Shown here: positions 11,068 through 27,522 of the stretch, in pieces
Layout of the letters: every line of letters starts with the position of its first letter
How positions within the stretch are numbered: the stretch's first letter is position 1
NCBI GenBank assembly: GCA_022791255.1
Contig: JAAVYR010000021.1
Coordinates: 1 to 35,951, forward strand
Reading direction: 5' to 3'
DNA from: Peptococcaceae bacterium
GTDB taxonomy: Bacteria > Bacillota > Dehalobacteriia > UBA4068 > JAAVYR01
DNA: 35,951 bases
The notes under the pieces: model-generated
Seen by the model: only the letters and a program-made list of their open reading frames with translations
What the model was told of the DNA's origin: nothing
The model's database searches: none
Made by a program: the position numbers and the translations under genes

Positions 11068-11088
11068 TTCCCCACCTCCTATGATTGT

Positions 11089-11117: not shown

Positions 11118-11133
11118 TAGAAAAATAAAAAAA

Positions 11134-11148: not shown

Positions 11149-11175
11149 GACATTTCGGTAAAACCGAATTACAAT
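11147..11175 (+). promoter_or_regulatory. Rightward early promoter
   Basis: TTGACA (11147-11152), 17 bp, TACAAT (11170-11175). It drives the Cro-like gene and the early genes. Operators O2 and O3 overlap it. Confidence 0.8.
11154..11168. promoter_or_regulatory. Operator O3, perfect palindrome
   Basis: TTCGGTAAAACCGAA is a perfect 6-3-6 palindrome located in the spacer of the rightward promoter. Confidence 0.75.
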
Positions 11176-11203
11176 ATAATTGAGCAAAGGAGGTGAATGT
11201 GTT

Positions 11204-11452: not shown

Positions 11453-11486
11453 TCTATTTGATTAAATAGAGCTAGGAGGTGAGCAT

Positions 11487-11678
11487 ATGGACGATGTTCG
11501 AGATATTAGCAAAAAAATCAAACAGCAAGAAAAAGAGATAGAAAACCTTCAATGGTCTGTTGGTAATCTAAGAAGTGAAAATGAGAAGCAGCAAAGAGAA
11601 ATAAATAATCTGTATTGCGGTGGGATTTTGCTAGCGGCATCTTCTATTATCGCAGCGCTAAATATTGCATCACGTTGA
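11487..11678 (+). CDS. Small coiled-coil membrane protein
   Basis: A 63-aa protein: residues 1-41 form a heptad-patterned charged helix (KKIKQQEKEIENLQWSVGNL) and residues 43-60 a C-terminal membrane segment (CGGILLAASSIIAALNI). It has a strong RBS (AGGAGGTG). The last 32 bp overlap the 3' end of the leftward gene at 11647-11967, so the two membrane-segment codings are antisense to each other. The function is unknown; tail-anchored proteins in this position may act in immunity or superinfection exclusion, but nothing in the sequence proves it. Confidence 0.7.
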   Translation: MDDVRDISKKIKQQEKEIENLQWSVGNLRSENEKQQREINNLYCGGILLAASSIIAALNIASR

Positions 11679-11967
11679 AAAAGAGGGAGGTTGCGGTGGC
11701 GATTGCCCAGAGTATATCTTTTTTGCTCCATTTGGGATAAAGCCAGTTTAACCCATCTAGGGTTAATTTAGGATTACTAACATCCATAACAATTCTTCCG
11801 GATGCCATTTTGGTGACTTTTATTCCTGTGATGTATTTTTTCTCATTTGCAGCGAAATAGATACACTCTCGACCCAAGTCGTCTAATTCTGGTATTTCTT
11901 GGTTGATGAGAATATATTTCATAATTCTTTTCATTTCTTTTTCTGAAGTTTGTCGTTGATTGGCCAT
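11647..11967 (-). CDS. Small protein with winged-helix-like body and C-terminal membrane segment
   Basis: A 106-aa protein from the ATG at 11967 (MANQRQTSEKEMKRIMKYIL). Residues about 10-75 alternate helix and strand and end in a KLTLDGLNWL motif, recalling YjcQ-type phage winged-helix proteins; the match is weak. Residues 85-105 are a C-terminal hydrophobic segment (ILWAIATATSLFFNVMQYLA). It has its own extended -10 promoter and opposes the early transcript, so it may be expressed in the lysogen. RBS AAAGGA. Confidence 0.6.
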   Translation of the reverse strand: MANQRQTSEKEMKRIMKYILINQEIPELDDLGRECIYFAANEKKYITGIKVTKMASGRIVMDVSNPKLTLDGLNWLYPKWSKKDILWAIATATSLFFNVMQYLALR

Positions 11968-11991
11968 AATTAAAAATCCTTTTTGATTTTT

Positions 11992-12000
11992 ATTATACCA
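11992..12000 (-). promoter_or_regulatory. Extended -10 promoter for the leftward small gene
   Basis: On the minus strand TGGTATAAT gives the TGN-TATAAT extended -10 (TATAAT at 11997-11992); no good -35 box is seen. It lies about 25 bp upstream of the start at 11967. Confidence 0.5.
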
Positions 12001-12024
12001 CAAACGGTTAGGAGGTGAGACAAG

Positions 12025-12342
12025 ATGAAAAAGACCTATATAGAAATCATTAAAAAAATGGTAGAGATGGGTATTGATAGACAATATCTTGCAGAGAGAC
12101 TTGGCAAAAGTATTACTTATGTTAATGCTCGATTTGACGGTTCTTTTAGCTGGACACTAGATGATATGTATCAGTTGGCTGTTCTATTTCAAATTCCAGT
12201 GGAACAAATAATTGACTATTTCCCACCGCGGCCGGCATTACGGAAGGCAAAGGATTTAGATAAAAATCTTATCTTTATAACTCCATTAAAGAAACCAGAA
12301 CCGGTAATCGAAAGCGGGGTGTCTTGGCGGTATGATGCGTGA
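12025..12342 (+). CDS. XRE-like small regulator
   Basis: A 105-aa protein with an N-terminal helix-turn-helix (VEMGIDRQYLAERLGKSITY then VNARFDG) and an extended helix bundle ending near residue 65 (LAVLFQIPVEQIIDYFP), typical of small XRE proteins. The C-terminal 40 residues are proline-rich and appear unstructured. RBS AGGAGGTG. It is probably an early regulator or accessory Cro-like protein; the target is unknown. Confidence 0.75.
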   Translation: MKKTYIEIIKKMVEMGIDRQYLAERLGKSITYVNARFDGSFSWTLDDMYQLAVLFQIPVEQIIDYFPPRPALRKAKDLDKNLIFITPLKKPEPVIESGVSWRYDA

Positions 12343-12381
12343 TAAAAAGAAACAGCCCTAACCAATGGCCAGGACTGTTTC
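12342..12381 (-). terminator. Leftward intrinsic terminator
   Basis: Inverted repeat GAAACAG/CTGTTTC with inner CCT/AGG pairing (12349-12381) is followed, on the minus strand, by TTTTTATC. It faces against the early genes and may stop antisense transcripts before they enter the switch region. Confidence 0.5.
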
Positions 12382-12475
12382 AAAAGAAAATTGTTTGCGG
12401 GTAAAGATTAACATACCAAAGCGGTATTCGTCAAGGTAACAATGTCTGATTTTATTGAAAGGGGGTAAGGATTAG

Positions 12476-12580
12476 ATGGAATTTAAAAGAAAAGTAGCTC
12501 CGGCTGTTCCAGAACCGAAGCTACACGGAAAAAGTAAGAAAAACTATTTCACTGAAAGTGTACCACGAAAGGAAGGGTAA
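12476..12580 (+). CDS. Small hypothetical protein, 34 aa
   Basis: MEFKRKVAPAVPEPKLHGKS begins this short basic, proline-containing ORF. It has a purine-rich RBS (GAAAGGGGG) and ends 6 bp before the next start. An internal imperfect stem (GTAGCT/AGCTAC) is present. The function is unknown and coding is uncertain. Confidence 0.4.
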   Translation: MEFKRKVAPAVPEPKLHGKSKKNYFTESVPRKEG

Positions 12581-12586
12581 AGTCAA

Positions 12587-12826
12587 ATGGAAGATAAAGA
12601 AATGGATTTCCAAAGGACAGTTGCTGATTTTAATCGGGCTGTAGACGAATATACTCAATTTCTCCGGCAGCGCATAGAATACTGGGAGCGCAATAAGAAA
12701 GCTGCAGCGTTTCTATCAACTAGCGGTCAAGAAAAAATATCATTAGATGTATTAGATACGGCCATTATCGTGTTTGGCGGCGGTATGGTAGCGCTTGCGG
12801 CCTTTATGGTTATGATATTGAGGTAA
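12587..12826 (+). CDS. Small tail-anchored membrane protein
   Basis: A 79-aa protein: amphipathic, charged N-terminal helix (DFNRAVDEYTQFLRQRIEYW) and a C-terminal membrane helix (IIVFGGGMVALAAFMVMIL, about residues 59-78). The layout matches other phage early tail-anchored proteins of unknown role. Good RBS (GAAAGGAAGG) and close spacing to the next gene support it being real. Confidence 0.65.
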   Translation: MEDKEMDFQRTVADFNRAVDEYTQFLRQRIEYWERNKKAAAFLSTSGQEKISLDVLDTAIIVFGGGMVALAAFMVMILR

Positions 12827-12842
12827 AAGGAGAGACGCGTAT

Positions 12843-13088
12843 ATGACAGATGAAGAAAAAAGACAGTTTGAAATTCTCAAGGAGGAGCTTATCAAGTATA
12901 TCTTTTTGTGCCGTAAGCTGGAGCAAGAATTGCAAGGCTCTCGGCAAGGCACAACATATTGGTATGAACAACACGGCATAAAGGCTGAAAGATTAAAGAA
13001 AACGATGGCGCTTTTAAGAGCATTTGGTTGTGATATTGCCAATGAAGATGATTTGGATAAGGGGGACGCAGCATGTCCTACCGCTTAA
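12843..13088 (+). CDS. Small hypothetical helical protein
   Basis: An 81-aa charged helical protein (MTDEEKRQFEILKEELIKYI) without a recognisable domain. RBS AAAAGGAGAG. It overlaps the next start by 16 bp, as in a tightly packed early operon. Confidence 0.65.
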   Translation: MTDEEKRQFEILKEELIKYIFLCRKLEQELQGSRQGTTYWYEQHGIKAERLKKTMALLRAFGCDIANEDDLDKGDAACPTA

Positions 13089-13309
13089 ATAGGTTTCAGC
13101 CGCCTGAAGACCTAACGGACCAGGCTATCAAGCTGAATAATCTCTACTATAAGCGCCTAGATATGCTGGAAGAAATCCGGAAGCTAGAAAATAGCCTGGA
13201 TGAAGCGAACCAGACAGAGGCTCGGAAAATCCGGGAAGAAATAGCGGTATTGCAGGAAGAAGCCTGGCAGTTAGAAAGACGAATGGATGATATGGGGTGT
13301 TCACCATGA
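13073..13309 (+). CDS. Small coiled-coil protein
   Basis: A 78-aa protein, almost all predicted coiled coil (LEEIRKLENSLDEANQTEAR followed by KIREEIAVLQEEAWQLERRM). RBS GGGGGACG. The stop overlaps the next ATG by 4 bp (ATGA). Unknown function; possibly an oligomeric accessory of the recombination proteins encoded after it. Confidence 0.65.
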   Translation: MSYRLNRFQPPEDLTDQAIKLNNLYYKRLDMLEEIRKLENSLDEANQTEARKIREEIAVLQEEAWQLERRMDDMGCSP

Positions 13310-13521
13310 ATAAAAGCTTAGGCGGCTGTACCAGATACCGTAAAGGTTGGCTGAATATAGAGGTGGGGCTCCCGGAAAAAGAGCCGGTTTGTCATTGGTG
13401 CCGGTTTATGAAATGGGAAAGCGGCGTTGGCAGGGGCTATTGCGCCGTTACCCATGAGTATTTGGTGGCGCCGGAAAGAAGAATAGGGGACAAGTGTCCC
13501 ATAGAATGGGAGGAAGCATAA
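13306..13521 (+). CDS. Small cysteine-containing phage protein
   Basis: A 71-aa protein with C-x2-C (VCHWCRFMKW) followed by C at GYCAVTHEY and a final C in GDKCPIEWEE, suggesting a zinc-binding fold. The ATG at 13306 is chosen because it forms the ATGA overlap with the previous stop and has GGGGTG upstream. It lies directly before the replication gene at 13522, a common place for such proteins in Bacillota phages. No named family recognised with certainty. Confidence 0.65.
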   Translation: MNKSLGGCTRYRKGWLNIEVGLPEKEPVCHWCRFMKWESGVGRGYCAVTHEYLVAPERRIGDKCPIEWEEA

Positions 13522-14106
13522 ATGAGCTTAGTTGTAAAAGAAAGCGGAAACACGGAATTTGAAATTATCCCGGAAGGGACATTTATTGCGACTTGCGTGG
13601 GCCTTTATGACATTGGCGCTCAATACAGCGAGAAATACGACAAATCCACGGATAGAGTCATTATTTCCTGGGAATTGCCGGAGGAGACTTATGAAAACGG
13701 CGCCGGAGAAGAATTACCAAGGATTATTTCTAATACCTACACGGCCTCTTTAGGGGAAAAGGCGAACTTGCGCAGGGATTTAGAGGCTTGGCGTGGACGA
13801 GCTTTTACAGAAGATGAATTAGCCGGCTTTGACCTGAAAAATATTCTTGGGAAACCCTGCATGATACAAGTGGTACATAAAAAGAACGGCGAGCGTACCT
13901 ATGCCAATATTAAAGCCATTATGAAGCTGCACGCTAGCGTTCCGGCGCCGGAAATTGCCAATGAACCAATCTACTTCGACATGGATGAAGAAGGCTGGGA
14001 AATGAAACTGGAAAGGCTGCCGGAATGGGTGCAAAACAAAGTGAAGGAAAGCCTTACTTACAAAGAAAAAATGGGACTTGTTGAAGAAAAACCGTTTACA
14101 GAATAG
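13522..14106 (+). CDS. Phage replication-associated protein (NGO0469/DUF669-like)
   Basis: A 194-aa protein with the pattern PEGTFIATCVGLYDIGAQYS, DRVIISWELPEE, NTYTASLGEKANLRRDLEAW and GFDLKNILGKPCMIQVVH, an OB-like beta-rich fold. Members of this phage family sit in replication modules and are annotated as replication-initiation or ssDNA-binding proteins. The C-terminal 30 residues are acidic and helical, as in ssDNA-binding tails. It precedes the HNHc nuclease and the replisome organiser. The family name is recalled from pattern, not searched. Confidence 0.72.
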   Translation: MSLVVKESGNTEFEIIPEGTFIATCVGLYDIGAQYSEKYDKSTDRVIISWELPEETYENGAGEELPRIISNTYTASLGEKANLRRDLEAWRGRAFTEDELAGFDLKNILGKPCMIQVVHKKNGERTYANIKAIMKLHASVPAPEIANEPIYFDMDEEGWEMKLERLPEWVQNKVKESLTYKEKMGLVEEKPFTE

Positions 14107-14117
14107 GCGGTGACATA

Positions 14118-14783
14118 ATGGTAGAAATAAAATGTAATATTTCCGGATATACGGCAGGAAAACGAGGGGGAAAGTTAGTTTTCTCCCTCGACGTAGACCA
14201 GGCAAAGCGGCTGGAGAGCGTTTTTGCCAACTTCCGGGACAAGCCTTTGAGGGTGCAAATAGATGTAGACGCGAAAGAACGGCTGAAGCAGCTGGGAACG
14301 ATTACCGAAGACCAACGCAAAAAGGTATATGCCCTCTTAAAAGAGATTAGCGTTCATTTCGGGGAGACAGTGGAAAGCTGCAAGGAAAGTATTAAGCAGG
14401 TCTATTGCAGTACCAGAGAACGGCAAATGTTTAGTCTCTCAGATTGCAGCAAGGAAGATGCAACGGACTTTATCGAGTTTTTAGTGAATTTCTGTCTGGA
14501 ATACGGTGTGCAGTTACAGGTAAATCCAAGCCAGTATATGACGGACTTACAGAAATACCAGCTAATGTGTATCTCTAATAAAGTTTGCTGTATTTGTGGG
14601 AAAACAGGGGAAATTCACCATTATGACGCCATTGGTTTATCTCATAAAAGGGGAGACCCGGAAGATGAAGCCACGCTCCGCAAGATATGTCTTTGTCGGA
14701 TACATCATACGGAAGCCCATAATTACAGCAGTAAAGAGGACTTTTGTCGGGATTACCATATAGAGCCGGTCCTTGTTGGTTAG
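14118..14783 (+). CDS. HNHc-type nuclease (HNHc_6-like)
   Basis: A 221-aa protein. The N-terminal half (1-100) resembles NinB/recombination-linked phage proteins (FSLDVDQAKRLESVFANFRD). The C-terminal half holds an HNH-like zinc nuclease: CCICG, then EIHHYDAIG, HKRGDP and CRIHHTEAH. The paired C-x2-C and the His clusters supply metal and catalytic sites. This two-part layout matches the putative HNHc nuclease family found next to phage SSB and replication genes, where it is thought to act in recombination-dependent replication. RBS GGCGGTGAC. Confidence 0.8.
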   Translation: MVEIKCNISGYTAGKRGGKLVFSLDVDQAKRLESVFANFRDKPLRVQIDVDAKERLKQLGTITEDQRKKVYALLKEISVHFGETVESCKESIKQVYCSTRERQMFSLSDCSKEDATDFIEFLVNFCLEYGVQLQVNPSQYMTDLQKYQLMCISNKVCCICGKTGEIHHYDAIGLSHKRGDPEDEATLRKICLCRIHHTEAHNYSSKEDFCRDYHIEPVLVG

Positions 14784-14794
14784 GCGGTGGTCTT

Positions 14795-15586
14795 TTGGAA
14801 TATTTAAAAGAGATTAATGCGTTTTACGATTGGGTCAGGTCAGATGCCAGGGTAAAATCATCTGCAATTAGTCTATGGCACGGATTGATGAACATAGCTA
14901 ATAAGGCAGGATGGCCCACGGAAATCACGGTATCCATATCCACGCTACAATCCACCACAGGAATGGGTAAAAATTCCATATACGCCGCAAGAAATATCCT
15001 ACAGCAAGTAGGCCGCATCCAATTTAAGGAACGGAGAGGCAGTCAGTCTGCTAAATATACGATTATTCCCTTTGCGTTTGAAATTAGGACACAAACCGGT
15101 ACACAAAGCGGTACGCAAACCGTGACACAAACAGGTACACAAAGTGGGTCACAAACCGGGAACATATATAGACTAGACAATACAAGACTAAACAAGAATA
15201 ATATACCCCCTTTATCCCCCAAAGGGGGAGAGGGGAAAACCAAATCCTCTAAATCTAAAAATAAAAAAATATATCCCTCTATCGAGGCACAAATTGTCTC
15301 TTACACAGATAGCGGGGTTTTGCAAAATGCCTTGGAGCAATTTGTGGCGGCGCGCAAGAAAATGAAAAAAACGCTGACAGAGTATGCCTTTTACTGCTTA
15401 TTGCGAGACTTGGATAGACTGGCAGAAAAAGGCTATGACAAGTTATCTTGTGTAAATATGGCAGTATCCAGAGGATGGCAGGGGTTTTATGAACCGTATA
15501 AGCAAAAGCAGATAGCAAAACAAGAGCAAAAAGACGGTTTTATTAATACACTTAATGGGATTTTAAAAGAAGAAGGTGAGTTGTAG
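14795..15586 (+). CDS. DnaD-type replisome organiser with in-gene iterons
   Basis: A 263-aa protein. The TTG at 14795 (LEYLKEINAFYDW) is preferred over the TTG at 14744, which overlaps the previous gene. Residues about 1-90 form a winged-helix replication-initiation domain (ISLWHGLMNIANKAGWPTEI then STTGMGKNSIYAARN). A Thr/Gln/Gly-rich linker (TQTGTQSGTQTVTQTG) is encoded by six 12-bp repeats. The C-terminal half is basic then helical. Such proteins bind the phage origin, often inside their own gene, and recruit the helicase through a loader; the next gene is the probable loader. Confidence 0.82.
   Translation: MEYLKEINAFYDWVRSDARVKSSAISLWHGLMNIANKAGWPTEITVSISTLQSTTGMGKNSIYAARNILQQVGRIQFKERRGSQSAKYTIIPFAFEIRTQTGTQSGTQTVTQTGTQSGSQTGNIYRLDNTRLNKNNIPPLSPKGGEGKTKSSKSKNKKIYPSIEAQIVSYTDSGVLQNALEQFVAARKKMKKTLTEYAFYCLLRDLDRLAEKGYDKLSCVNMAVSRGWQGFYEPYKQKQIAKQEQKDGFINTLNGILKEEGEL
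15086..15157. repeat. Six 12-bp iterons; probable replication origin
   Basis: Six head-to-tail 12-bp units with consensus GGTACACAAACC start at 15086, 15098, 15110, 15122, 15134 and 15146. They are followed by an AT-rich stretch (15162-15210). Location inside the replisome organiser gene is the standard place for an origin in such phages. Because 12 bp is four codons, the repeats also keep the frame open. Confidence 0.75.
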
Positions 15587-16212
15587 TGCAAAAAAAGGAA
15601 GTGGCCGTACTTCTTGCTATGAATAAGGCGAATTTTCCTAACTTTTACAAAGATATGGGGGAGTTGGAAACGAAGGGCCTGCTTGATAGCTGGTATTTAC
15701 AGTTTCAGAATTACGATAAAAATATCATCCAGGCGGCTTTCATGGAAGCGCTGAAAGTTTGTAGATTTCCTGTAACCATTGCGGATATTTTTGAACGACT
15801 GGGAAAGATTGGCGCGTTGCACCAAGTGCCGGTAGATAGCCTATGGCAGCAGTTTTTACATGCTGCAGAGGATGCCTATTTATTATCTTATGGCTTTGGT
15901 TATACAGCGCCAGGACGGACGGAAGGTAAGACCCAAGGCCAGGAAAACCGGGAAAAGGCAGAGCGAATTTTTGCAGCCTTGGAACCAGAAATTCAGCAAT
16001 ATGTGGGTACTTTGGAACGGTTAGTTGATTTTGGCAAAATGGATAAAGATAAGCTGGAGCAGATTATTCAACCAGCCTTTAGACGGTCTATTGATAGTAT
16101 GCGGGAACGGCATGGCTTAGAGAAAATGTTAAACCAGGAAACCAAGGAGTTGTTGCTTTCTGATGCGGTTGTGGACAAGCCATTGCTGGAGGACTGCAGT
16201 AATGAGAGATAG
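15586..16212 (+). CDS. Probable replicative helicase loader (G39P-like)
   Basis: A 208-aa helical protein starting with GTG at 15586, which shares a base with the previous stop (TAGTG); RBS AAGAAGGTGAG. The N-terminal domain (EVAVLLAMNKANFPNFYKDM, then LLDSWYLQFQNYDKN and FMEALKVCRFPVTIADI) has the pattern of SPP1 G39P-like helicase loader/inhibitor proteins. The C-terminal half is charged. Expected role: bind the host or phage DnaB-type helicase and deliver it to the organiser at the origin. No AAA+ Walker motifs are present, so it is not a DnaC/DnaI-type loader. Confidence 0.7.
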   Translation: MQKKEVAVLLAMNKANFPNFYKDMGELETKGLLDSWYLQFQNYDKNIIQAAFMEALKVCRFPVTIADIFERLGKIGALHQVPVDSLWQQFLHAAEDAYLLSYGFGYTAPGRTEGKTQGQENREKAERIFAALEPEIQQYVGTLERLVDFGKMDKDKLEQIIQPAFRRSIDSMRERHGLEKMLNQETKELLLSDAVVDKPLLEDCSNER

Positions 16213-16552
16213 CTTATATTTTGTCATTCCTGGCCATCCTATCCCGGCGGTAAGAATGACCCAGAAGTCTAAATGGGTAAATCCGCGGGCTATTGCTTAC
16301 CTAGACTATAAGCGGACCATCGGTATGATTGCGAGAGCTAGCGCCAAGGGACAGCAGTTTGAAAATGCTGTGGTAGACATGAAAGTTTACTTTATGGGGA
16401 GCGGCGGAGATGTAGATAACTACATAAAGTCTGTGTTAGATGGCTGCAATGGGGTGCTGTGGAAAGACGATAGGCTGGTTGTTGATGCTCATTGTCGTAA
16501 ATATAAGGTGGACAATGTAAACCTGGAACGGATAGAGGTGGAAGTATGCTAA
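16202..16552 (+). CDS. rusA: RusA-family Holliday junction resolvase
   Basis: A 116-aa protein; ATG at 16202 with GGAGG upstream, overlapping the previous stop by 11 bp. RusA features: N-terminal IPGHPIPAVRMTQK, then the catalytic aspartates D70 and D72 (GGDVDNYIKSVLDG), D80, and D89/D90 (WKDDRLV), with K76 in the NYIK motif. It resolves four-way junctions formed during recombination-dependent replication and clears branched DNA before packaging. Length is normal for the family. Confidence 0.92.
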   Translation: MRDSLYFVIPGHPIPAVRMTQKSKWVNPRAIAYLDYKRTIGMIARASAKGQQFENAVVDMKVYFMGSGGDVDNYIKSVLDGCNGVLWKDDRLVVDAHCRKYKVDNVNLERIEVEVC

Positions 16553-16779
16553 CAAAAGACGAGATTATAGAACGGTATAACGCTGGTAATACCGTAGATT
16601 ACCTGGTGAAGCTTTGCACCTATGAAGATTATACGGAGCGGCAAAAGGCGAAAAAGAAAAATAAAAAGGAGCAAAAGAAAAAGTTGACAAAGGATGATGC
16701 CAGACTGTTTGTAGAGCAAACCATTTGCGAATACATACGGCAGGGGGCTATTTTTGATAAGGCGGTGTCGCAATGCTAA
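16546..16779 (+). CDS. Small basic hypothetical protein
   Basis: A 77-aa protein with a very lysine-rich middle (RQKAKKKNKKEQKKKLTK, about residues 32-50), consistent with nucleic-acid binding. RBS GAGGTGG, 7-bp overlaps with both neighbours. No family recognised. Confidence 0.6.
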   Translation: MLTKDEIIERYNAGNTVDYLVKLCTYEDYTERQKAKKKNKKEQKKKLTKDDARLFVEQTICEYIRQGAIFDKAVSQC

Positions 16780-17237
16780 AAACCTGTATTGTTTGCGGGA
16801 AAGAATTTGAAACCAACCGCCCTAATCAGGTGACTTGTGGTAAGAGATGTCGCAGAGCGCGGATGATTGAACGTAGCAGAAAATACCGTCAAGAGCATCA
16901 GAAAGAAAAACTAATATGTTTATCTTGTGGTAAAGAGTTTAAGGGAAATAAAGGCCAGAAATATTGCAGCCGGGGTTGTGCCAGTAAGGAAAATATAAAA
17001 AATAAAAAAAGCGTTAGTGAAAGCCTCTGTTGGACTTGTATCCATGCCGTACCAAGCCCAGAACAGGGAACAGGCTGCAGTTGGAGCAGAAGTGTTGGGA
17101 AAATCCCGGTGGAAGGCAGTGAGTACAAAGAGAAAATTACTTTTCCCTGGGATAACAATGTTAGAAGAAAAGTAGTATTAAAAATAATAACTAAGTGTCC
17201 TAAGTATCAGTGGGATACAAAAGCGAGGCGGAAATAA
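16773..17237 (+). CDS. Multi-zinc-finger phage protein
   Basis: A 154-aa protein with three cysteine modules. Finger 1 (CIVCGKEFETNRPNQVTCGKRC, four cysteines) and finger 2 (CLSCGKEFKGNKGQKYCSRGC, four cysteines) are paralogous treble-clef-like units. The third begins CWTCIHAVP, then GTGCSW and KCPKYQWD, and resembles a stand-alone family of small phage proteins. It looks like a fusion of a two-finger protein with that family. Role unknown, perhaps DNA or RNA binding. RBS AAGGCGGTG. Confidence 0.65.
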   Translation: MLKTCIVCGKEFETNRPNQVTCGKRCRRARMIERSRKYRQEHQKEKLICLSCGKEFKGNKGQKYCSRGCASKENIKNKKSVSESLCWTCIHAVPSPEQGTGCSWSRSVGKIPVEGSEYKEKITFPWDNNVRRKVVLKIITKCPKYQWDTKARRK

Positions 17238-17266
17238 TGGTCCTAATGGAAAAGGAGGACGAATAA

Positions 17267-17779
17267 ATGAAAAATAAAGACGACTTAATCAGCCGGGGAG
17301 CGGTGTTAGATATACTTTCTGAGATAGACAGAGCAACCAATCCTGTTCATTTTCTAGGATGGGAACCGCAGCTTGTAGCAGCTAAACAGATAAAAAAATT
17401 GCCCGGCCAAATGACAGCAGCGGAAGCCTGGGAGATTGCGAGAAAGATTTGGTTGTATGAAGACGATGGTGGAATGTCTCTTGATGACACAAATCAAGTG
17501 TTTGGAACTACAGATATTGATTATATTATACGAGCCTTTACTCCCGAAGAAGCTAAGGCAAAGATAGAAGCCTGGGGAAACAGGTTAAGGGTTGGAGATG
17601 TGGTGGAAAAACACGCGGGAAAGGAAACCAAGGCTATCATAACAAAGCTACATTCTGACAATAAATTTTGCGAGGCTATTACGGTATCAGGTGCGACAGG
17701 TGTATATGAAATTAGTGATTTACGAAAGACAGGCAAGACCATAGATATTCAAAGTGTGTTGGAGCAATTGGAGGAGTGA
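17267..17779 (+). CDS. Phage hypothetical protein with a duplicated AEEAWEIARKI domain
   Basis: A 170-aa protein. N-terminal DLISRGAVLDILSEIDRA is a motif common in small phage proteins. Residues about 50-105 (AAEAWEIARKIW to TPEEAKAKIEAW) are a helical domain repeated in the next gene. The C-terminal part is beta-rich (RVGDVVEKHAGKETKAIITK, then EISDLRKTGKTID). RBS AAAAGGAGG. No biochemical function can be assigned. Confidence 0.65.
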   Translation: MKNKDDLISRGAVLDILSEIDRATNPVHFLGWEPQLVAAKQIKKLPGQMTAAEAWEIARKIWLYEDDGGMSLDDTNQVFGTTDIDYIIRAFTPEEAKAKIEAWGNRLRVGDVVEKHAGKETKAIITKLHSDNKFCEAITVSGATGVYEISDLRKTGKTIDIQSVLEQLEE

Positions 17780-17783
17780 GAAA

Positions 17784-18065
17784 ATGAAGAATTTATACAA
17801 TACAAAAATAACAGCCGAAGAAGCTTGGGAGATTGCGAGAAAGATTACCCGTGATGAAGTATTAGGCGGTTTCTCTAATGAGGAACTAAGTGAAATATTT
17901 GGCACCATGTATCCAGATGAGATATTCAGCAGATATACGCCTGAGGAAGCAAAGGCAAAGATAGTAGAGTGGGAAAAGGGACTCGCCATACATAAGGACC
18001 CGGCAGAAGTAATGGAGTCATGGAGAGTTGTTTTAAAAGACTTTATGAAATCCAGCAGGGTGTAA
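17784..18065 (+). CDS. Paralogue of the upstream domain, stand-alone
   Basis: A 93-aa protein: residues 8-66 (TAEEAWEIARKI to TPEEAKAKIVEW) closely match residues 50-105 of the preceding protein, and parts are near-identical at DNA level (gggagattgcgagaaagatt at both). The GGAGG RBS lies four bases before the previous stop. It is a recent tandem duplication of one domain. Function unknown. Confidence 0.65.
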   Translation: MKNLYNTKITAEEAWEIARKITRDEVLGGFSNEELSEIFGTMYPDEIFSRYTPEEAKAKIVEWEKGLAIHKDPAEVMESWRVVLKDFMKSSRV

Positions 18066-18090
18066 CAGGATAGGAAAGGGGAGCGGAAAG

Positions 18091-18837
18091 ATGAACGATT
18101 TTGCAATGGTAACAATAAATCAGGAAAATGATAGAATAACAGTCTCAGCAAGGGAATTACATGAATTTCTGCAAGTAAAAACAGCTTTTAAGGACTGGTT
18201 TCCACGGATGTGTGAATATGGGTTTGAAGAAGGTGTGGAGTTTTGCTCATTTTTGAGCGAAACCTCTGAACAGGGTGGAAGACCAGCAAAGGATGCGCAA
18301 CTAACCATTGAAATGGCGAAGGAAATCTGCATGCTGCAGCGAAACGAAAGAGGCAAAGCAGCTCGGCAATATTTCATTCAGCTGGAAAAGGACTGGAATA
18401 GTCCAGAAAAGGTAATGGCCAGAGCCTTAAAGATAGCAGATGAAAAGATTATTCTTTTGAACCAAAAGAACTTACAGTTGGAACAACAAATTGCTGAATA
18501 TGAACCGAAGATACAATACCTAGATGAAATCTTAGCTTGCAAGGAAACCGTGACCATTACTCAGATTGCAGCAGATTATGACTTGACGGCATACAAGCTA
18601 AATAAAATCCTTTATGAGGAAGGGGTGCAGCGAAAAGTAGGCGGGCAATGGCTGCTGTATAAAGAACATATGGGAAAAGGTTATACCAAATCTGAAACGG
18701 TTACCTTTACCGGGAGAGATGGTAGAGATAGGGTAACCATGAATACAAAATGGACTCAAAAAGGCCGGCTGTTTATTCACAATATATTAACTGCTAGGGG
18801 GATTGTGGCCGTCATGGATAGAGAGTGTATTGCTTAG
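18091..18837 (+). CDS. Phage antirepressor, AntA plus KilA-C domains
   Basis: A 248-aa protein. Residues about 10-110 are an AntA/AntB domain (VSARELHEFLQVKTAFKDWF, NERGKAARQYFIQLEKDW). A coiled linker follows (about 120-150). The C-terminal KilA-C/ANT domain spans about 155-245 (TITQIAADYDLTAYKLNKIL, YEEGVQRKVGGQWLLY, TQKGRLFIHN). Antirepressors of this type inactivate CI-like repressors or modulate lytic commitment. This gives the phage a second route to lift repression beside the ImmA-like protease. RBS AAAGGGGAG. Confidence 0.9.
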   Translation: MNDFAMVTINQENDRITVSARELHEFLQVKTAFKDWFPRMCEYGFEEGVEFCSFLSETSEQGGRPAKDAQLTIEMAKEICMLQRNERGKAARQYFIQLEKDWNSPEKVMARALKIADEKIILLNQKNLQLEQQIAEYEPKIQYLDEILACKETVTITQIAADYDLTAYKLNKILYEEGVQRKVGGQWLLYKEHMGKGYTKSETVTFTGRDGRDRVTMNTKWTQKGRLFIHNILTARGIVAVMDRECIA

Positions 18838-18847
18838 GTGGTGGGAC

Positions 18848-19240
18848 ATGGATAAGCAGACATTAAGACAATACATACCTCTTTGCAAAGAGATAGAAAG
18901 TCTACAGGCAGAGAAAGAAGCTATCTTAAAGGATTTAGGCGGGGTAAAGCCGTCTGACGGTATGCCCCATGGAACAGGAACCGGAGACCCAACCGGAAAT
19001 ATTGCTGTAAAAATCAATGAACTGGAGCAGATGATAAATGAAAGTATCAATAAGCGAGTTGAGTTAAGAAGAATGATAGAGGCTGCTATTGATAGCCTTT
19101 CTCCTAAGGATGGCTTGCTGATGCGGAAGCGGTATCTGGAAGGGAAGAAATGGGAGCAGGTGGCGGTAGAAATGAATTATGATTATAGACATGTTACTAA
19201 AATTCATGGTTTCATTCTAAAGAAAATAGAAAGCCTTTAG
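18848..19240 (+). CDS. ArpU/DUF1492-type late transcription regulator
   Basis: A 131-aa, sigma-factor-like protein; ATG at 18848 with GGTGGTGG upstream. The N-terminal half is a coiled region with a flexible Gly-rich insert (GTGTGDPTGN). The C-terminal half ends in a helix-turn-helix resembling sigma region 4 (MRKRYLEGKKWEQVAVEMNY then DYRHVTKIHGFILKKIE). Proteins of this family close the early region of many Bacillota phages and switch on late genes. The promoter with tandem 10-mers begins only 3 bp after the stop and is the likely target. Confidence 0.82.
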   Translation: MDKQTLRQYIPLCKEIESLQAEKEAILKDLGGVKPSDGMPHGTGTGDPTGNIAVKINELEQMINESINKRVELRRMIEAAIDSLSPKDGLLMRKRYLEGKKWEQVAVEMNYDYRHVTKIHGFILKKIESL

Positions 19241-19242
19241 AT

Positions 19243-19278
19243 AATGCCCCTAAATGCCCCTATTTTCTATGTTATAAT
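19243..19278 (+). promoter_or_regulatory. Late promoter with tandem 10-mer activator sites
   Basis: Two exact copies of AATGCCCCTA (19243-19252 and 19253-19262) occupy the -35 region, followed by an extended -10 box TGT-TATAAT (TATAAT 19273-19278). There is no sigma-A -35 box. One-helical-turn spacing fits binding of a dimer or two monomers of the ArpU-like regulator encoded just upstream. Confidence 0.75.
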
Positions 19279-19312
19279 GTAAATGGCGAAAGATGAAAAA
19301 TGCGTAAGCAGA

Positions 19313-19355
19313 GAAAAAGCACTTACCAACAGTAAATGGTAGGTGCTTTTTCTAT
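19313..19355 (+). terminator. Strong intrinsic terminator just downstream of the late promoter
   Basis: A 15-bp stem (19313-19327 with 19338-19352, one U-G pair) with a T5 run built into the end of the 3' arm. It lies about 30 nt after the predicted late start, so late RNA would stop unless antiterminated. It may also simply end the early transcript. Confidence 0.82.
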
Positions 19356-19439
19356 ATCTGGAGTCTGGGCGGCAATGAACACTATATAAGAAAGTCGGGG
19401 TGGGGACTGGTAGTGTAAAAAAAGAAAGGGAGCGGGTGT

Positions 19440-19757
19440 GTGGTAAAGGCATATGCAAAAAAGTTTTACAACTCCAAAGAATGGAAGCAAATAAGGCAAT
19501 TCGTTCTTATGAGAGACAATTATTTATGTCAACAATGCGGAGCGGTCGCAGAGGAAGTACATCATATTAACCATGTTACACAAGAGAATATCAACTTAAA
19601 GGAAACACATTGCCAAGGAAACCTAATAAGTCTTTGTAGAAATTGCCACTGTCGTATCCACGACAAGGATAGGGAAAGAGGAGAAGGGAGCGGGGCTTAT
19701 TATTTTGATGAGGATGGTTTTCCACAAGAGGGAAGTCCCCCTGGTCTGAAAAAATAA
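19440..19757 (+). CDS. HNH endonuclease of the packaging module
   Basis: A 105-aa HNH protein; GTG at 19440 with GGGAG upstream. Zinc-binding cysteine pairs C-x2-C (LCQQCGA) and C-x2-C (LCRNCHCRIH) flank the HNH core (EEVHHINHV, then N in QGNLISL and final H in CHCRIHD). HNH proteins encoded just before terminase stimulate cos cleavage by the terminase complex in HK97-like phages. The cytosine-rich cos candidate lies 50 bp downstream. Confidence 0.9.
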   Translation: MVKAYAKKFYNSKEWKQIRQFVLMRDNYLCQQCGAVAEEVHHINHVTQENINLKETHCQGNLISLCRNCHCRIHDKDRERGEGSGAYYFDEDGFPQEGSPPGLKK

Positions 19758-19800
19758 TAATACCCCCTTGAGACCGAAGTGCAGCCCTTTTTTAATACTG

Positions 19801-19830
19801 ACTAACGCACGCGACCCCCCCCTACCCATA
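19801..19830. other. Probable cos site
   Basis: CGCACGCGACCCCCCCCTA lies at 19806-19824 between HNH and terminase small subunit, a GC-rich island (C8 run) in a region of otherwise moderate GC. This is the usual location of cos in HNH-containing cos-type siphoviruses. The cut positions cannot be read. Confidence 0.5.
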
Positions 19831-19844
19831 AGAGAGGTGATAAG

Positions 19845-20198
19845 ATGACCGAAATTATAAGTGTCGAAGAGGAAATAAACAGACTTGAAGAGATTTATGT
19901 AGATATTCCAGAAAACAAGAAAAAGTTAATTGATGGATTGATAGAACAGGCTGCAAGGTTGCGTGTATCTTTAACGCTTCTTTGGAAAGACATTTGCGAA
20001 AAGGGTGATGTGGAGCTATTTACCCAAAGTGATAAAACAGCTCCATATGAAAGAGAACGGCCCGCAGCAAGATTATTTAACGCAAGGGATAAAAACTATC
20101 AATCTATTATCAAGCAATTAAATGAACTATTGCCCGAAGGTCAGGCAACGGATGAGGGTGAAGCTCTAATGAATTTCGTTGCTGGTGGTAAAGGATGA
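19845..20198 (+). CDS. terS: Terminase small subunit, P27 family
   Basis: A 117-aa protein of P27-type: N-terminal helices (EEINRLEEIYVDIPENKKKL), a central oligomerisation helix (LIEQAARLRVSLTLLWKDI) and a C-terminal block (ERPAARLFNARDKNYQSIIK, QLNELLP). It recognises cos DNA and recruits the large subunit. RBS GAGAGGTG; overlaps terL by 4 bp. Confidence 0.88.
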   Translation: MTEIISVEEEINRLEEIYVDIPENKKKLIDGLIEQAARLRVSLTLLWKDICEKGDVELFTQSDKTAPYERERPAARLFNARDKNYQSIIKQLNELLPEGQATDEGEALMNFVAGGKG

Positions 20199-21865
20199 AC
20201 TATGTAAAAGAGTATTATGAAGCAATAGAGGCAGGGCAGGAGGTCGTTCCTCAAAAGATAAAAGCATTATATCAAAGGGAAGTCCAGTGGATGAATAATC
20301 CACCTGATGACTTTCCTTTTTATTTTGACGAAGACCAAGGGGAGCGGCCAATTTATTTCATTGAAACATTTTGCCGTCACTCCAAAGGAAAGCAAGCGCG
20401 GCAAACCATTAGATTAGAGTTGTTTCAAAAGGCAAAACTACAGTTGGCCTTTGGCTGGTTGGAAAAAGAGACGAACAAACGCCGTTTTCATGAGGTTGTG
20501 GATTTACGAGCTAGAAAATGCGGCAAATCAACAGAGACAGCCGGGGTTGGATGGTATTGCTTAGTTGGAGACGGCGAAAGTGGTGCTGAGATATATTGTG
20601 CTGCTAATAAATTAGACCAAGCAAAAGTAATTTTTGACGAAGCTGTAAACATGAGAACCCAGTCAAAAGCGTTAAGAAGCGTTACGAAGAAACGGCAAAG
20701 TGATATTTATTTTCCAACAACCTTTTCTGTAATGAAACCATTAGCTGCTGATAGCAAAACAATGGACGGGTTGAATGCCCATTTTTTTGCATTAGATGAA
20801 TTTCATGAAGCCAGAAATAGAAAGGTTTATGATGTTTTAAAACAAAGTCAATCAGCAAGAGAACAGCCCCTTGCTTGGTTAATTAGTACCAATGGATTTG
20901 TGAGAGAATTATTTTTTGATAATATATACGATTATGCGTCATCTGTAGCCCTTTGGGATGATGGGTATCATGATTATCGATTACTGCCGTTAATATACGA
21001 GCTAGATAAGCGCGAGGAATGGACAAACCCAAAATGTTGGGCAAAGGCAAATCCAGGGTTAGGTGTGATTAAATCCATTAAGACATTAGCTGAAAATGTG
21101 GAAAGAGCCAAAAGGGACCCAGAATTTTTAGCAACTGTACTTACTAAAGATTTTAATATTCCAGAGAATACCGCAGATACCTGGCTTAGCTTTGCTGAAG
21201 CCGTGAATGAAGAAAGTATTGATATGGAATATTTAAGAAATTCTTATGCCATTGGTGGTTGCGACTTATCAGCGACTACAGATTTAACTTGTGCAACTCT
21301 GCTAATTCGTAAACCAAATGATAAAAATTTCTATGTGCTGCAAAAATATTTTCTTCCTCAAATGAGGGTTGATGAAGTAGAAATGAAAAAGGAAAAAGAA
21401 GCCCCATATAAAACCTGGTATGAAAAAGGATGGCTAGAAATTTGCGAAGGTGCAACGGTAGATTATAAAAAGGTAACAGAATGGTTTGTTTCTATGGTAA
21501 AAGAATATAATATTCGTCCTTTATGGATAGGATATGATGCGGCCTTATCGGGTTACTGGAGAGAGGAAATGGAAGAAAGTGGCTTTGATATGGAGAAAAT
21601 AAGGCAGGGGGCATTTACTTGGACTTACCCCATGAAGCAACTAAAAGGTTTGTTTGAAGAGCATAAGATTATTTATGATAATAATCCTATGTTGCGTTGG
21701 TGCCTACTCAATACGGGGAAGAAAACATTAAACAAAGATGGTATCGAAAGTATTCAGCCGGTAAAATGCAGTCAGTCTAAACGCATTGACGGCATGGTAA
21801 GCCTATTAAATGCGGTAGTTAGCTATTATAACCATGAGGATGATTATTTGAGATATGTAAAATAG
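20195..21865 (+). CDS. terL: Terminase large subunit
   Basis: A 556-aa packaging ATPase-nuclease of the Terminase_1/HK97 type. Walker A-like RARKCGKST at residues 105-113, Walker B with ALDEFHEA (D201, E202), a coupling motif STNG (231-234), and RNase H-like nuclease aspartates D357 (GGCDLSATTDLT), D in IGYDAAL (about 447) and D in RIDGMVSLL near the C-terminus. It pumps DNA into the procapsid and cuts genome ends. Length is normal for the family. Translationally coupled to terS. Confidence 0.96.
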   Translation: MNYVKEYYEAIEAGQEVVPQKIKALYQREVQWMNNPPDDFPFYFDEDQGERPIYFIETFCRHSKGKQARQTIRLELFQKAKLQLAFGWLEKETNKRRFHEVVDLRARKCGKSTETAGVGWYCLVGDGESGAEIYCAANKLDQAKVIFDEAVNMRTQSKALRSVTKKRQSDIYFPTTFSVMKPLAADSKTMDGLNAHFFALDEFHEARNRKVYDVLKQSQSAREQPLAWLISTNGFVRELFFDNIYDYASSVALWDDGYHDYRLLPLIYELDKREEWTNPKCWAKANPGLGVIKSIKTLAENVERAKRDPEFLATVLTKDFNIPENTADTWLSFAEAVNEESIDMEYLRNSYAIGGCDLSATTDLTCATLLIRKPNDKNFYVLQKYFLPQMRVDEVEMKKEKEAPYKTWYEKGWLEICEGATVDYKKVTEWFVSMVKEYNIRPLWIGYDAALSGYWREEMEESGFDMEKIRQGAFTWTYPMKQLKGLFEEHKIIYDNNPMLRWCLLNTGKKTLNKDGIESIQPVKCSQSKRIDGMVSLLNAVVSYYNHEDDYLRYVK

Positions 21866-21876
21866 GGGGTGGAAAT

Positions 21877-23148
21877 TTGCAAATAGGCAGTGCGATAAAA
21901 GCATTATTGGGAAATGTAAAACAGGTCGTAAAATATGGTAGTTGGCGGGAAATTGGTACATATAATGCTATGTTTTCTTCCTTTGGAAAGGATATTTATC
22001 AAAGTGAGATTATTCGTAGTTGCATCCGAGCCATAGCGGAGAATACGAGCAAAGCCAATGTAAAATGTATCCGGCGTGTTGAGGCTGGTAAAATAGTTGG
22101 AGAAAATCAGCTGCAACGGTTAATACAATATCGTCCGAATTTATACATGAATGGAAAAGATTTTCTATATAAAGTGAGGGCCTTGTTGGAAATTTACAAT
22201 ACGGTATTTATTTTCATAAAAAGAGATGATAAAGGTCGTTGCGTTGGTTTGTATCCTGTTCCACAAGCTAATTGTGAGGCGTTAGATGTTCAGGGCCGTT
22301 TATATATCAAGTTTCTGTTTGCGACGGGTGATAATCTTATTGCTGGTTGGGAAGACTTGGCTGCATTACGAAAAGATTATGTTAAAAGTGATATTTTTGG
22401 AGATGAAAACACTGCAATTTATGGAACATTAAATTTGCTGCATACCTTAAACCAAGGACAGCAAAATGCTATTAAATCTACTGCTAATTTGCGGGGTATT
22501 TTAAAATCTACCAAAGCGATGTTAGATGGGAAGGACCTTAAGAAGAGTCAAGAACAATTTATTCGGGATTATATGAACTCAGCAAACGAAGGAGGTATTG
22601 CAAGTCTTGATGCTACCCAAGATTTTATACCAATTACGATGCAGCCAGCAGTAGCCAATTATAAGCATTTTGAGGAACAGCGTAATAATATCTATCGTTA
22701 CTATGGTGTAAATGAAAATATCTTGACCAGTAAGGCATATGGAGATGAGTGGGAAGCTTTCTATGAGTCTCGCATAGAGCCTTTTTTAATTGCTCTAGGG
22801 TTGGAATTAACTAACAAGATATTTACAGAGAGAGAGCGTGGTTTTGGAAATGAGATTATTTTTGAAGCAAATCGTTTAGCTTATGCTTCTACTTCTGCAA
22901 AAATGAACATGGTTAATCTGATTGATAGAGGGGTTCTGACTATTAACGAGTATCGGGAAATATTAAACTTGTCACCTGTGGAAGGCGGTGATGTTCGGGT
23001 TATTCGTAAGGAATACACGGAAGCACAAAATTTAAATGCTGTGCAAGGAATTAGAGAGGAAGGAGGTGATGTGACAGATGAACTCCAACAGGGAGTGTTG
23101 GGCGCTGGAAATGCCCTTGGTAGCGATATCCAGCGCGAGGAGGATTGA
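21877..23148 (+). CDS. HK97-family portal protein
   Basis: A 423-aa portal; TTG at 21877 with GGGGGTGG upstream. Typical stretches are SEIIRSCIRAIAENTSKANV, NLYMNGKDFLYKVRALLEIY, KSTANLRGILKS and YYGVNENILTSK followed by WEAFYESRIEPFLIALGLEL. It forms the dodecameric vertex ring through which DNA is packaged. The last 71 bp overlap the protease gene in another frame. Confidence 0.94.
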   Translation: MQIGSAIKALLGNVKQVVKYGSWREIGTYNAMFSSFGKDIYQSEIIRSCIRAIAENTSKANVKCIRRVEAGKIVGENQLQRLIQYRPNLYMNGKDFLYKVRALLEIYNTVFIFIKRDDKGRCVGLYPVPQANCEALDVQGRLYIKFLFATGDNLIAGWEDLAALRKDYVKSDIFGDENTAIYGTLNLLHTLNQGQQNAIKSTANLRGILKSTKAMLDGKDLKKSQEQFIRDYMNSANEGGIASLDATQDFIPITMQPAVANYKHFEEQRNNIYRYYGVNENILTSKAYGDEWEAFYESRIEPFLIALGLELTNKIFTERERGFGNEIIFEANRLAYASTSAKMNMVNLIDRGVLTINEYREILNLSPVEGGDVRVIRKEYTEAQNLNAVQGIREEGGDVTDELQQGVLGAGNALGSDIQREED

Positions 23149-23692
23149 TACTGATTTCTATATAGAAGGATATGCAACTACATTCAATAAACCGTATTTA
23201 CTGTACGAGGACAGAAACAACAAATATTTCGAGATGATTGACCGCAATGCATTGGCAAATGCTGATTTATCCGATGTAATTATGCAGTTTGACCATCGTG
23301 GCAAAGTATTAGCAAGACGGTCTAATGGAACGCTAGGAATAGAGCCTGATGATAAAGGGCTTTTTATTTTTGCCGATTTAAGTAAATCCAATGAGGCAAG
23401 AAATCTTCACGAGGAAATTGTTAACGGCCTGACAACTAAGATGAGCTGGAAGTTTACAGTTGCTAAAGATGTATACAACAGAGAAACCAGAACAAGAACA
23501 ATCTTGGAAATTAAAAAGGTTTATGATGTATCGGCGGTATCATTGCCGGCAAATGCCGACACTGAAATAAATGCTCGTTCCTATTTTGACGGAGTGATTG
23601 AAATGGAAAAGCAGGAGTTGCTTGAGCAGAAAAAAGCCTTAGAACTCGAAAAACTAAAGTATGAAGTATTAGGAGGTATATCATGGAATTAA
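23078..23692 (+). CDS. Prohead maturation protease (HK97 family, U35-like)
   Basis: A 204-aa protein starting within the portal gene (RBS GGAAGGAGGTG). Motifs: FYIEGYATTFNKPYLLY, the catalytic His in MQFDHRGKVLARRSNGTL, and the catalytic Ser in TTKMSWKFTV, followed by VYDVSAVSLPANADTEI. It cleaves the delta domain of the capsid protein during procapsid maturation. The C-terminal tail is coiled and charged. It overlaps the capsid gene by 10 bp. Confidence 0.93.
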   Translation: MNSNRECWALEMPLVAISSARRIDTDFYIEGYATTFNKPYLLYEDRNNKYFEMIDRNALANADLSDVIMQFDHRGKVLARRSNGTLGIEPDDKGLFIFADLSKSNEARNLHEEIVNGLTTKMSWKFTVAKDVYNRETRTRTILEIKKVYDVSAVSLPANADTEINARSYFDGVIEMEKQELLEQKKALELEKLKYEVLGGISWN

Positions 23693-24834
23693 AAGACATG
23701 AATTTGAACGATGTGGAAAGCCGGTTATTTGACCTGGACAAGCAAGTGAAAGAAAGTAATAGTGTGGATTTTGTGAAAGATGCCCAAAAGGAAAAGGAAC
23801 AGCTTTTACAAAGAAAAGCAGAATTGCAGGAACTAGAACAGCGAAAAAAGGATATTTTTTCAATCGAAAATGGCGCAGGGCAAAAGAAAGAGGAACGAAT
23901 GGGAGGATATAAAGTGGAAGAAAAAACATATGGAGTTAATACCCCAGAATACCGCATGGCTTTTTTAAAACAAATGCAAGGTAAAGAATTGGATGTAGAA
24001 GAAAGAACAGCATTAACCGCTGCATCTGCCGTAATTCCTACTACTACAATGAACCAAATTATTGGACAGTTAGAACTAGCGCCAATGATTGCAGCAGTAG
24101 ATGTATCCTATATTCCCGGCAATGTTTCTTTTCCAGTTGAAAATGTCATTAATGATGCCAATTGGGTAGAAATGGCAACAGCAGCAACGGATGCAGCAGA
24201 TAGTTTGTCCATGATTACCTTAGGAGCATATAAACTAATTAAAACCATAGAAATTACTGCTGATGTACAAGCAATGGGGATTGATGCTTTTGAAAGATGG
24301 TTGGTTGCCCGTCTTGTGAATAAACTTGAAAAAGCGATTAGCAATGCAATTCTCAATGGTACTGGGAAAAACCAGCCTACTGGATTATTAAAAAGTGGTG
24401 AAATTACAAATACTGGTACTTTTACAAAAGATGGTCTTACTTACGAGGATATCTTGGGGATTATTGCATCAATCCCAAGCCAATATATGCCAGAAGCGCA
24501 GTTTGTTTTGCATCGTACTTTATTTTACAGGGAAGTGTTAGGTTTAACAGATACTAATGGCAAACCTGTTATTGTAAGAGACCCGCAAAGCCCTGCTAAA
24601 TTAAATATTTTGGGATACCCGGTGCTTGTAGACGATAATTGTCCTGCTGACACAATTATTTTTGGGCGAACAAAAGGGTATAAATTTAATTTTGCAAGTA
24701 TGCCTACAGTAAAATCTGATGAGTCGGTTGGTTTCCGGTCTGGTACTACTGTTTACCGTGGTATGGTTTTATGTGATGGTAAATTGGGGGATAAAAATGG
24801 TCTATGTGTTTATAAAAGAGCAACGGCAGCATAG
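23683..24834 (+). CDS. Major capsid protein, HK97 fold, with N-terminal delta domain
   Basis: A 383-aa protein. Residues 1-65 are a charged coiled coil (internal scaffold or delta domain, removed by the protease). The mature shell begins near KTYGVNTPEYRMAFL. HK97-fold stretches include AASAVIPTTTMNQIIGQLEL, INDANWVEMATAA, KLEKAISNAILNGTGKNQPT and the C-terminal FGRTKGYKFNFAS. RBS GGAGG. No separate scaffold gene exists, as expected. Confidence 0.95.
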   Translation: MELKDMNLNDVESRLFDLDKQVKESNSVDFVKDAQKEKEQLLQRKAELQELEQRKKDIFSIENGAGQKKEERMGGYKVEEKTYGVNTPEYRMAFLKQMQGKELDVEERTALTAASAVIPTTTMNQIIGQLELAPMIAAVDVSYIPGNVSFPVENVINDANWVEMATAATDAADSLSMITLGAYKLIKTIEITADVQAMGIDAFERWLVARLVNKLEKAISNAILNGTGKNQPTGLLKSGEITNTGTFTKDGLTYEDILGIIASIPSQYMPEAQFVLHRTLFYREVLGLTDTNGKPVIVRDPQSPAKLNILGYPVLVDDNCPADTIIFGRTKGYKFNFASMPTVKSDESVGFRSGTTVYRGMVLCDGKLGDKNGLCVYKRATAA

Positions 24835-24838
24835 TGTA

Positions 24839-24863
24839 AAGGAAGGAGCCAACCTTCCTTTTT
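24839..24863 (+). terminator. Weak hairpin-T terminator after the capsid gene
   Basis: AAGGAAGG/CCTTCCTT stem (24839-24860, loop AGCCAA) with a short T run. Probably a partial terminator that lowers expression of the connector and tail genes relative to capsid, or an mRNA-stabilising 3' end. Confidence 0.65.
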
Positions 24864-24881
24864 AGTTAGGAGGGAAATTAC

Positions 24882-25157
24882 ATGCTGGAAGCTGTAAAGC
24901 TTGCTTTACGCATTAGCCACAATAAATTAGATGGTGAAATTCAAGATTATATAATTGTAGCGCAGAGAGAATTAATGCGGCTAGGGGTATCGGAAGCTAT
25001 GGCAACAAGTGAAGTTGAGCCGCTAATTGTGGAGGCTGTAAAAACCTATTGCAAATATGCCTATGCTACAGATGAAAAACAGCGAGATGGTTATTTTAAC
25101 AGTTGGCAATATCAGGCGGACTGTTTGAGTAAGACTGCCTTTTATAGAGGGGGATAG
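24882..25157 (+). CDS. Head-tail connector, gp6-like
   Basis: A 91-aa helical protein (LEAVKLALRISHNKLDGEIQ, then IIVAQRELMRLGVSEA) matching the HK97 gp6/SPP1 gp15-type adaptor that sits under the portal. RBS AGGAGGG; position after the capsid gene is standard. Confidence 0.85.
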   Translation: MLEAVKLALRISHNKLDGEIQDYIIVAQRELMRLGVSEAMATSEVEPLIVEAVKTYCKYAYATDEKQRDGYFNSWQYQADCLSKTAFYRGG

Positions 25158-27262: not shown

Positions 27263-27522
27263 TTGACCTGCTATTAAAAAGGTACTCTTCTCTAGAGTGC
27301 CTTTTTTCTTTTGATTTAGAGGATGCAATAACTATTATTAATTACGCTTGCCGGCAACAGGAAGAGGAACAGATATTTTTACGCTGGATTGTTGGGGCAC
27401 AATATGAAATGTCGTTTGATGATTTTAAGTACAGACTGCAGTCACCAAAATTGAAAGCAGAAGAGGCAATTTTAGAAAATGTATATGGAATTATTGCCTC
27501 TATCCAGAAAGAAGGTGAGTAG
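27229..27522 (+). CDS. gpT part of the gpGT frameshift product
   Basis: 97 codons after the shift, without a good start or RBS of its own, so reached only by -1 frameshifting from gpG (gpGT about 200 aa). The segment reads LEDAITIINYACRQQEEEQI, RWIVGAQYEMSFDDFKYRL, LKAEEAILENVYGIIASIQK, the same pattern as Bacillota gpT proteins. It stops one base before the tape measure TTG. Confidence 0.85.
   Translation, partial: YCISRYDYEEIIDLLLKRYSSLECLFSFDLEDAITIINYACRQQEEEQIFLRWIVGAQYEMSFDDFKYRLQSPKLKAEEAILENVYGIIASIQKEGE

Follow-up and report, generated by a model that had tools for sequence, protein, structure and literature searches.

How does RNA polymerase reach the late genes of a temperate phage when a strong terminator stands directly behind the late promoter? 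For most temperate phages with Gram-positive hosts, late control has so far been explained by Ltr activation alone. We examined this question in the window, meaning the whole stretch of 35,951 nt that was analysed (Peptococcaceae bacterium, contig JAAVYR010000021.1), for which a sequence-only reading had proposed a late promoter with a terminator immediately behind it, as in lambda PR'-tR'. Our favoured reading, to which we give a probability of roughly 45%, is that the window contains a temperate phage's switch from early to late transcription, at which the Ltr protein would activate the late promoter and would also carry polymerase past the leader terminator.

The genes around the proposed switch lie in the order 130-aa regulator, HNH, phrog_1066 protein and TerL, and promoter and terminator occupy the interval between the regulator gene and HNH-TerL:

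18848..19240, + strand: late transcriptional regulator of the Ltr type, 130 aa, with a sigma-region-4-like C-terminal domain (phrog_36)
19440..19757, + strand: HNH endonuclease, first late gene (phrog_144, 3.6e-21)
19845..20198, + strand: packaging-region gene of unassigned function in the small-terminase position, i.e. the HNH-TerL interval (phrog_1066, 7.4e-40)
20195..21865, + strand: terminase large subunit, TerL (PF20441, 1e-37; PF03354, 1.7e-30)

Elsewhere in the window, two tRNA genes (7058-7220) adjoin a reverse-strand integrase gene (7294-8406) at what is probably the attachment side of the prophage, and the genes at 4378-6849 resemble host spore-germination genes by eye.

The regulator had been described as an ArpU-like protein of 131 aa. 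The gene codes for 130 aa plus the stop, and the assignment agrees with a match to phrog_36 ('transcriptional regulator', E=1.7e-25), which is of the Ltr/RinA/ArpU/DUF1492 type. The protein itself missed the Pfam and NCBIfam cut-offs, and its matches to sigma70-ECF TIGR02937 (1.6e-7), DUF1492 (0.0017) and RinA TIGR01636 (0.006) are all below the curated values. Among 15 aligned family members, DUF1492 was found in 13, the NCBIfam models RinA and ArpU in seven and six, respectively, and Phage_antitermQ was touched by one (E=0.021). An AlphaFold2 model (pLDDT 90.5) consists of two long helices and then a compact helical domain, for which Foldseek returned sigma region 4 structures, including some bound to -35 DNA, at probabilities of 0.99-1.00 but with E>0.1. 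A sequence profile of 91 relatives likewise led to PDB sigma region 4 chains (SigF, 5e-6). The nearest predicted viral folds were DUF1492 proteins (2e-6), and 21Q was absent among the 50 PDB fold matches listed. The whole protein has a pI of 7.8 and its HTH region one of 9.6; the median over the 91 relatives is 6.1. Judged by these sequence and fold matches, the regulator is a member of the Ltr superfamily (RinA/ArpU/DUF1492 late regulators), located at the early/late boundary.

Its gene ends (19240) two bases 5' of the first of the following elements:

19243..19252, + strand: direct repeat 1, AATGCCCCTA, predicted Ltr site at about -42 to -33 (from sequence; position kept in relatives)
19253..19262, + strand: direct repeat 2, AATGCCCCTA, predicted Ltr site at about -32 to -23, where a -35 element would be (from sequence; position kept in relatives)
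19270..19278, + strand: extended -10, TGTTATAAT (TG-T-TATAAT, perfect)
19285..19352, + strand: predicted short leader RNA of about 65-70 nt, from the inferred start to the terminator (fold -27.8 kcal/mol against -11.7 in shuffles, z = -6.0)
19312..19353, + strand: intrinsic terminator hairpin with U-tract (inverted repeat of 17 nt, 94%; core -17.5 kcal/mol)

The AATGCCCCTA pair is the sole perfect 10-bp tandem pair in the 36-kb window (average of 60 shuffles: 0.13), and the extended -10 begins seven bases 3' of the second repeat. The two perfect repeats and the extended -10 of the sequence-only reading are thus in place, and we predict the same transcription start, ~19285, because of the position of the extended -10. 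By eye, no -35 element was found at 16-18 bp spacing; the best candidate, CTAAAT at 17-bp spacing, agreed in 2/6 positions. A scan of the + strand from 10000 to 25000 gave no sigma-70-like promoter call between 18137 and 21654, and therefore no other late promoter is evident. The octamer TTTTCTAT occurs directly 5' of the extended -10 (19263-19270) and again at the terminator end (19348-19355), which may be chance.

The hairpin arms (19312-19328 and 19337-19353) form 17 bp at 94% complementarity around an 8-nt gap, and the end reads UUUUUCU. A stem about 30 nt past the start had been expected and was found, with onset at about +28; its length, given earlier as 15 bp, had been underestimated. 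One pattern-based terminator scan missed the hairpin, probably by counting the U-tract into the stem, and an independent scan provided the energy listed above. A classical attenuator in the leader was considered and rejected: by eye, a 5-bp GUAAG/CUUAC pairing is the only alternative to the 17-bp stem. An Rfam scan of the window returned two tRNAs only, with no described RNA family or riboswitch at the leader.

We then compared this arrangement among relatives drawn from whole genomes, viral contigs and phage records. Scans with the single protein were too weak (no relatives in viral contigs, one in genome contigs), and a first alignment of relatives was too diverse for the pattern scan, so that tighter alignments were used instead. 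Removal of near-duplicates left 140 non-redundant Ltr loci. We counted a terminator where a hairpin with U-tract, at -9 kcal/mol or better, began no more than 300 nt from the regulator stop; this applied to 82% of the 140 loci compared with 23% of dinucleotide shuffles. Such hairpins lie on the coding strand at 113/140 loci and on the other strand at 66. This strand bias argues against the hairpin being a DNA site, for example part of a cos region. Cos sites are often located directly before HNH and terminase genes, and the window hairpin is directly 5' of such genes; the G-U and compensatory pairs in related leader RNAs (see below) nevertheless point to RNA. We consider it very improbable that the hairpin has nothing to do with the late promoter, be it as such a site or as the mere end of the early operon.

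A confident repeat promoter, defined by a combined score of 10-bp repeats and -10 above the 95th percentile of shuffles, was present at 75 loci (54%). In the 58 of these with a terminator behind the promoter, TG occurs at 81-93% together with a TATAAT-like hexamer, percentages that partly reflect selection by the -10 criterion itself. When these 58 loci were aligned on the -10, the 10-bp self-match peaked at 66-84% at hexamer columns -29 to -23 over a background near 25%; these loci were partly picked by such features, so that the percentages describe the class and the tests are the shuffles and the fixed register. Relative to the start, the repeats occupy a fixed place at about -41 to -24 and have an exact 10-bp period. 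Their sequence varies by phage at constant spacing (AATGTCAGT, AAAGCGACT, AAAAAGTAGT, AAGCCCC and others), as expected if each regulator HTH reads its own repeat. A -10-like pause element at +1 to +16 was not enriched, as a high-scoring hexamer occurred in 22% of the 58 loci and 30% of shuffles.

At 58 of the 75 confident loci a terminator lies no more than 200 nt downstream of the promoter, and 56 of these have none before it. 'After only' thus outnumbers 'before only' by 56 to 6 (p=3e-11 under equal odds), an excess that we do not take as proof: in most cases the promoter starts directly behind the regulator gene, with no space for a terminator in front of it. This crowding is compatible with a reading in which Ltr is only an activator: the terminator would insulate the late genes from early-operon readthrough and weak basal starts, and strong activation would let enough polymerase leak through. 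That the window promoter lacks a -35 element and that a Q-like pause motif was not found fit this reading as well, and we regard it as a realistic possibility, at somewhat under even odds. It has more difficulty with four non-redundant loci (L108, L118, L126 and L136), at which a terminator right after the regulator gene is followed by an extended -10 and then by a second terminator; 10-bp repeats were found at three of the four. Since another terminator already precedes the promoter, the second is superfluous as an early-operon end, which also speaks against that explanation of the hairpin. Furthermore, a strong terminator behind its own promoter would waste most starts, and even Ltr subfamilies that differ greatly keep the promoter-terminator order.

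Related systems have been studied experimentally. In phi13, Ltr controls the late genes and its P23 promoter has been tested (PMC13123087), and RinA of phi11 is cited in the same paper as controlling late genes. A phi13 reporter that extended to +50 depended entirely on Ltr (PMC13123087), which supports the activator-only explanation. By our present coordinates, this reporter includes the whole hairpin and only part of the U-tract. Judging from this dependence, Ltr is probably required for initiation itself in phi13, and a second role is still compatible with it. Termination is never mentioned in the phi13 paper (PMC13123087).

RinA of phi11, Ltr/P23 of phi13 and Alt of TP901-1 resemble the window in that the regulator gene closes the early cluster, the -10 is of the TATA type and the late operon follows, with repeats at the regulator gene 3' end or just past it. 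The rinA-terS gap of phi11 contains TGGCAG repeats 11 bp apart, GATATTAT, and then a GGUUGGCU/AGCCAAUCC hairpin with U6. In phi13, a ACUCUCAC/GUGAGGGU hairpin with U-tract lies downstream of the P23 -10, at about +27 to +50. By this sequence evidence both phages, like the window, have a hairpin with U-tract before the late genes. In TP901-1, a GGUUGUCC/GGCAGCC hairpin with U-tract lies directly 5' of terS. The window has two 10-bp repeats at -42 to -23, in contrast to four repeats at -107 to -42 in phi13 and at -76 to -32 in TP901-1 (PMC13123087). tRNA genes were also seen 3' of predicted late promoters in TP901-1 (L064, 3137-3207), between the promoter and the pre-terS hairpin, and in phiRM10 (L067, 3277-3349), 3' of the hairpin.

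The Ltr late promoter is thus of a known kind, and the conserved leader terminator is undescribed as far as our literature search shows, in which no paper describing leader terminators in Ltr phages was found. The comparison across Ltr phages gives good support to a predicted arrangement of late promoter, regulator sites and leader terminator. This part of the lambda analogy has held up. A strict copy of lambda is not what we see, since the repeats stand in for the -35 element and not within the spacer, and a -10-like pause element is not enriched in the first transcribed bases.

A close parallel may be Q of phage 21, whose fold is reported to be sigma-R4-like; it recognises a direct-repeat site and overcomes the terminator in its leader (PMC6606751). 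Like the window, the PR'-tR' region of phage 21 combines a small regulator carrying a sigma-R4-like HTH with a direct-repeat site at the promoter and a leader terminator (PMC6606751). The 21Q site, however, is nearer the start and acts together with a -10-like pause element, whereas the window repeats occupy the -35 slot and a pause element was not found. AlpA of Pseudomonas aeruginosa, earlier taken for an activator, acts on terminators that begin at +54 and +26, i.e. 54 and 26 nt past the start, compared with +28 in the window (PMC7969949). AlpA differs in being another protein with a predicted winged-helix motif, in its site between -35 and -10 and in the presence of a -35 element (PMC7969949). 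GafY/GafZ of the Caulobacter gene transfer agent place a late-type phage cluster under activation plus antitermination, but the tasks are split over two proteins and the tested terminator lies after the first gene (PMC11150451). Two traits of the Q/AlpA type are present in the window: a leader terminator 5' of the first late gene and a predicted regulator site inside the promoter, in the -35 slot and not in the spacer.

Our favoured reading, activation together with antitermination, would work as follows. The Ltr-type protein, product of the last gene of the early cluster, would bind the two repeats through its sigma-R4-like HTH and, placed in the -35 slot, would let RNA polymerase use the extended -10 promoter that lacks a -35; both binding and activation are inferred from relatives. 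The transcript would meet the intrinsic terminator at once and, without further help, would end as a leader of only ~65-70 nt. Polymerase started under Ltr would also be made to read through the terminator, and Ltr would thereby be one protein for the tasks that elsewhere fall to an activator plus an antiterminator.

The anatomy of the locus, its conservation at fixed spacing and the terminator kept behind the promoter were observed directly. Antitermination is slightly favoured because of the second terminator kept in four loci, the sigma-R4-like domain that the regulator would share with 21Q and the AlpA terminators at +26/+54. We also counted in its favour the promoter-terminator layout, including that of phi11 and phi13, the lack of any other late promoter call and further terminator-like hairpins within the late operon:

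24838..24861, + strand: hairpin with U-tract 3' of the likely capsid gene (-11.1 kcal/mol), a possible attenuator or antitermination target
27276..27306, + strand: hairpin with U-tract 5' of a tape-measure-like gene (-16.0 kcal/mol)

Counted against it were that described Ltrs are called activators, that the phi13 reporter needed Ltr, that the repeats replace the -35, that no pause element is enriched and that 21Q did not appear among the PDB fold matches listed. Sequence alone cannot separate antitermination from activation strong enough to read through.

A third explanation is that the leader RNA itself is functional, either as a small RNA produced by termination or through a put-RNA-like action on polymerase, so that the RNA and not Ltr would control readthrough. 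Clostridial relatives (L048-L058, L069-L096, L310-L326) offer some support, as their leader, downstream of the ltr repeats/-10 and upstream of the late genes, is conserved and covarying. It spans about 120-150 nt from the -10 to the terminator end, with strong conservation. The 5' end of the transcript (GGYAUAGAAAA) forms pairs with UUUUUCUAURCC, i.e. the terminator U-tract plus bases beyond, and this closing stem encloses one stem-loop domain and the terminator hairpin. The outer stem would be fully formed only in readthrough RNA, since it uses bases past the U-tract. Of 639 pair cells 92.6% are standard, and 29 are double-change cells, compared with 12 in shuffles; the pairing fell to about half when the partners were shifted by one to three columns. 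A covariance model found the structure in 15/398 genomes of the phylum, at the same spot, directly downstream of the regulator gene, wherever that gene was in reach. No described family in Rfam 15 exceeded its threshold; an SR1 match at the L051 leader fell below the Rfam gathering score and was rejected.

These relatives carry a covarying multi-branched leader RNA of about 130-150 nt. The window leader, in contrast, lacks the structured domain: tested as a member of the family it scored 10.5 bits (E=1.1) and was rejected, being a short form. In many relatives, moreover, the 10-30 nt between -10 and hairpin are too short for much structure. We therefore consider control by the leader RNA unlikely. 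Between leader terminator and packaging genes, L315, L316, L318 and L323 carry accessory genes (by eye HTH/ImmA-like, Abi-like and toxin-antitoxin-like), arranged as if at an insertion hotspot. L316 and L325, on the same contig, are two structured-leader copies ~2.2 kb apart with equal model scores, and no ltr relative was found within the retrieved stretch.

Since one Ltr phage after another has a terminator directly behind the late promoter, either some factor must take polymerase past it or late output is held down there deliberately. The example of AlpA illustrates how a reporter that includes the leader terminator can make an antiterminator look like an activator. We tentatively propose, at rather less than even odds, that the Ltr superfamily may consist of one-protein activator-antiterminators, a Gram-positive counterpart of Q acting by a different promoter geometry. 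If true, regulators known as simple activators would also move RNA polymerase past a stop signal. The conserved leader terminator turns 'activator or antiterminator?' into a direct experimental question, one with consequences for packaging, lysis and gene transfer in these phages.
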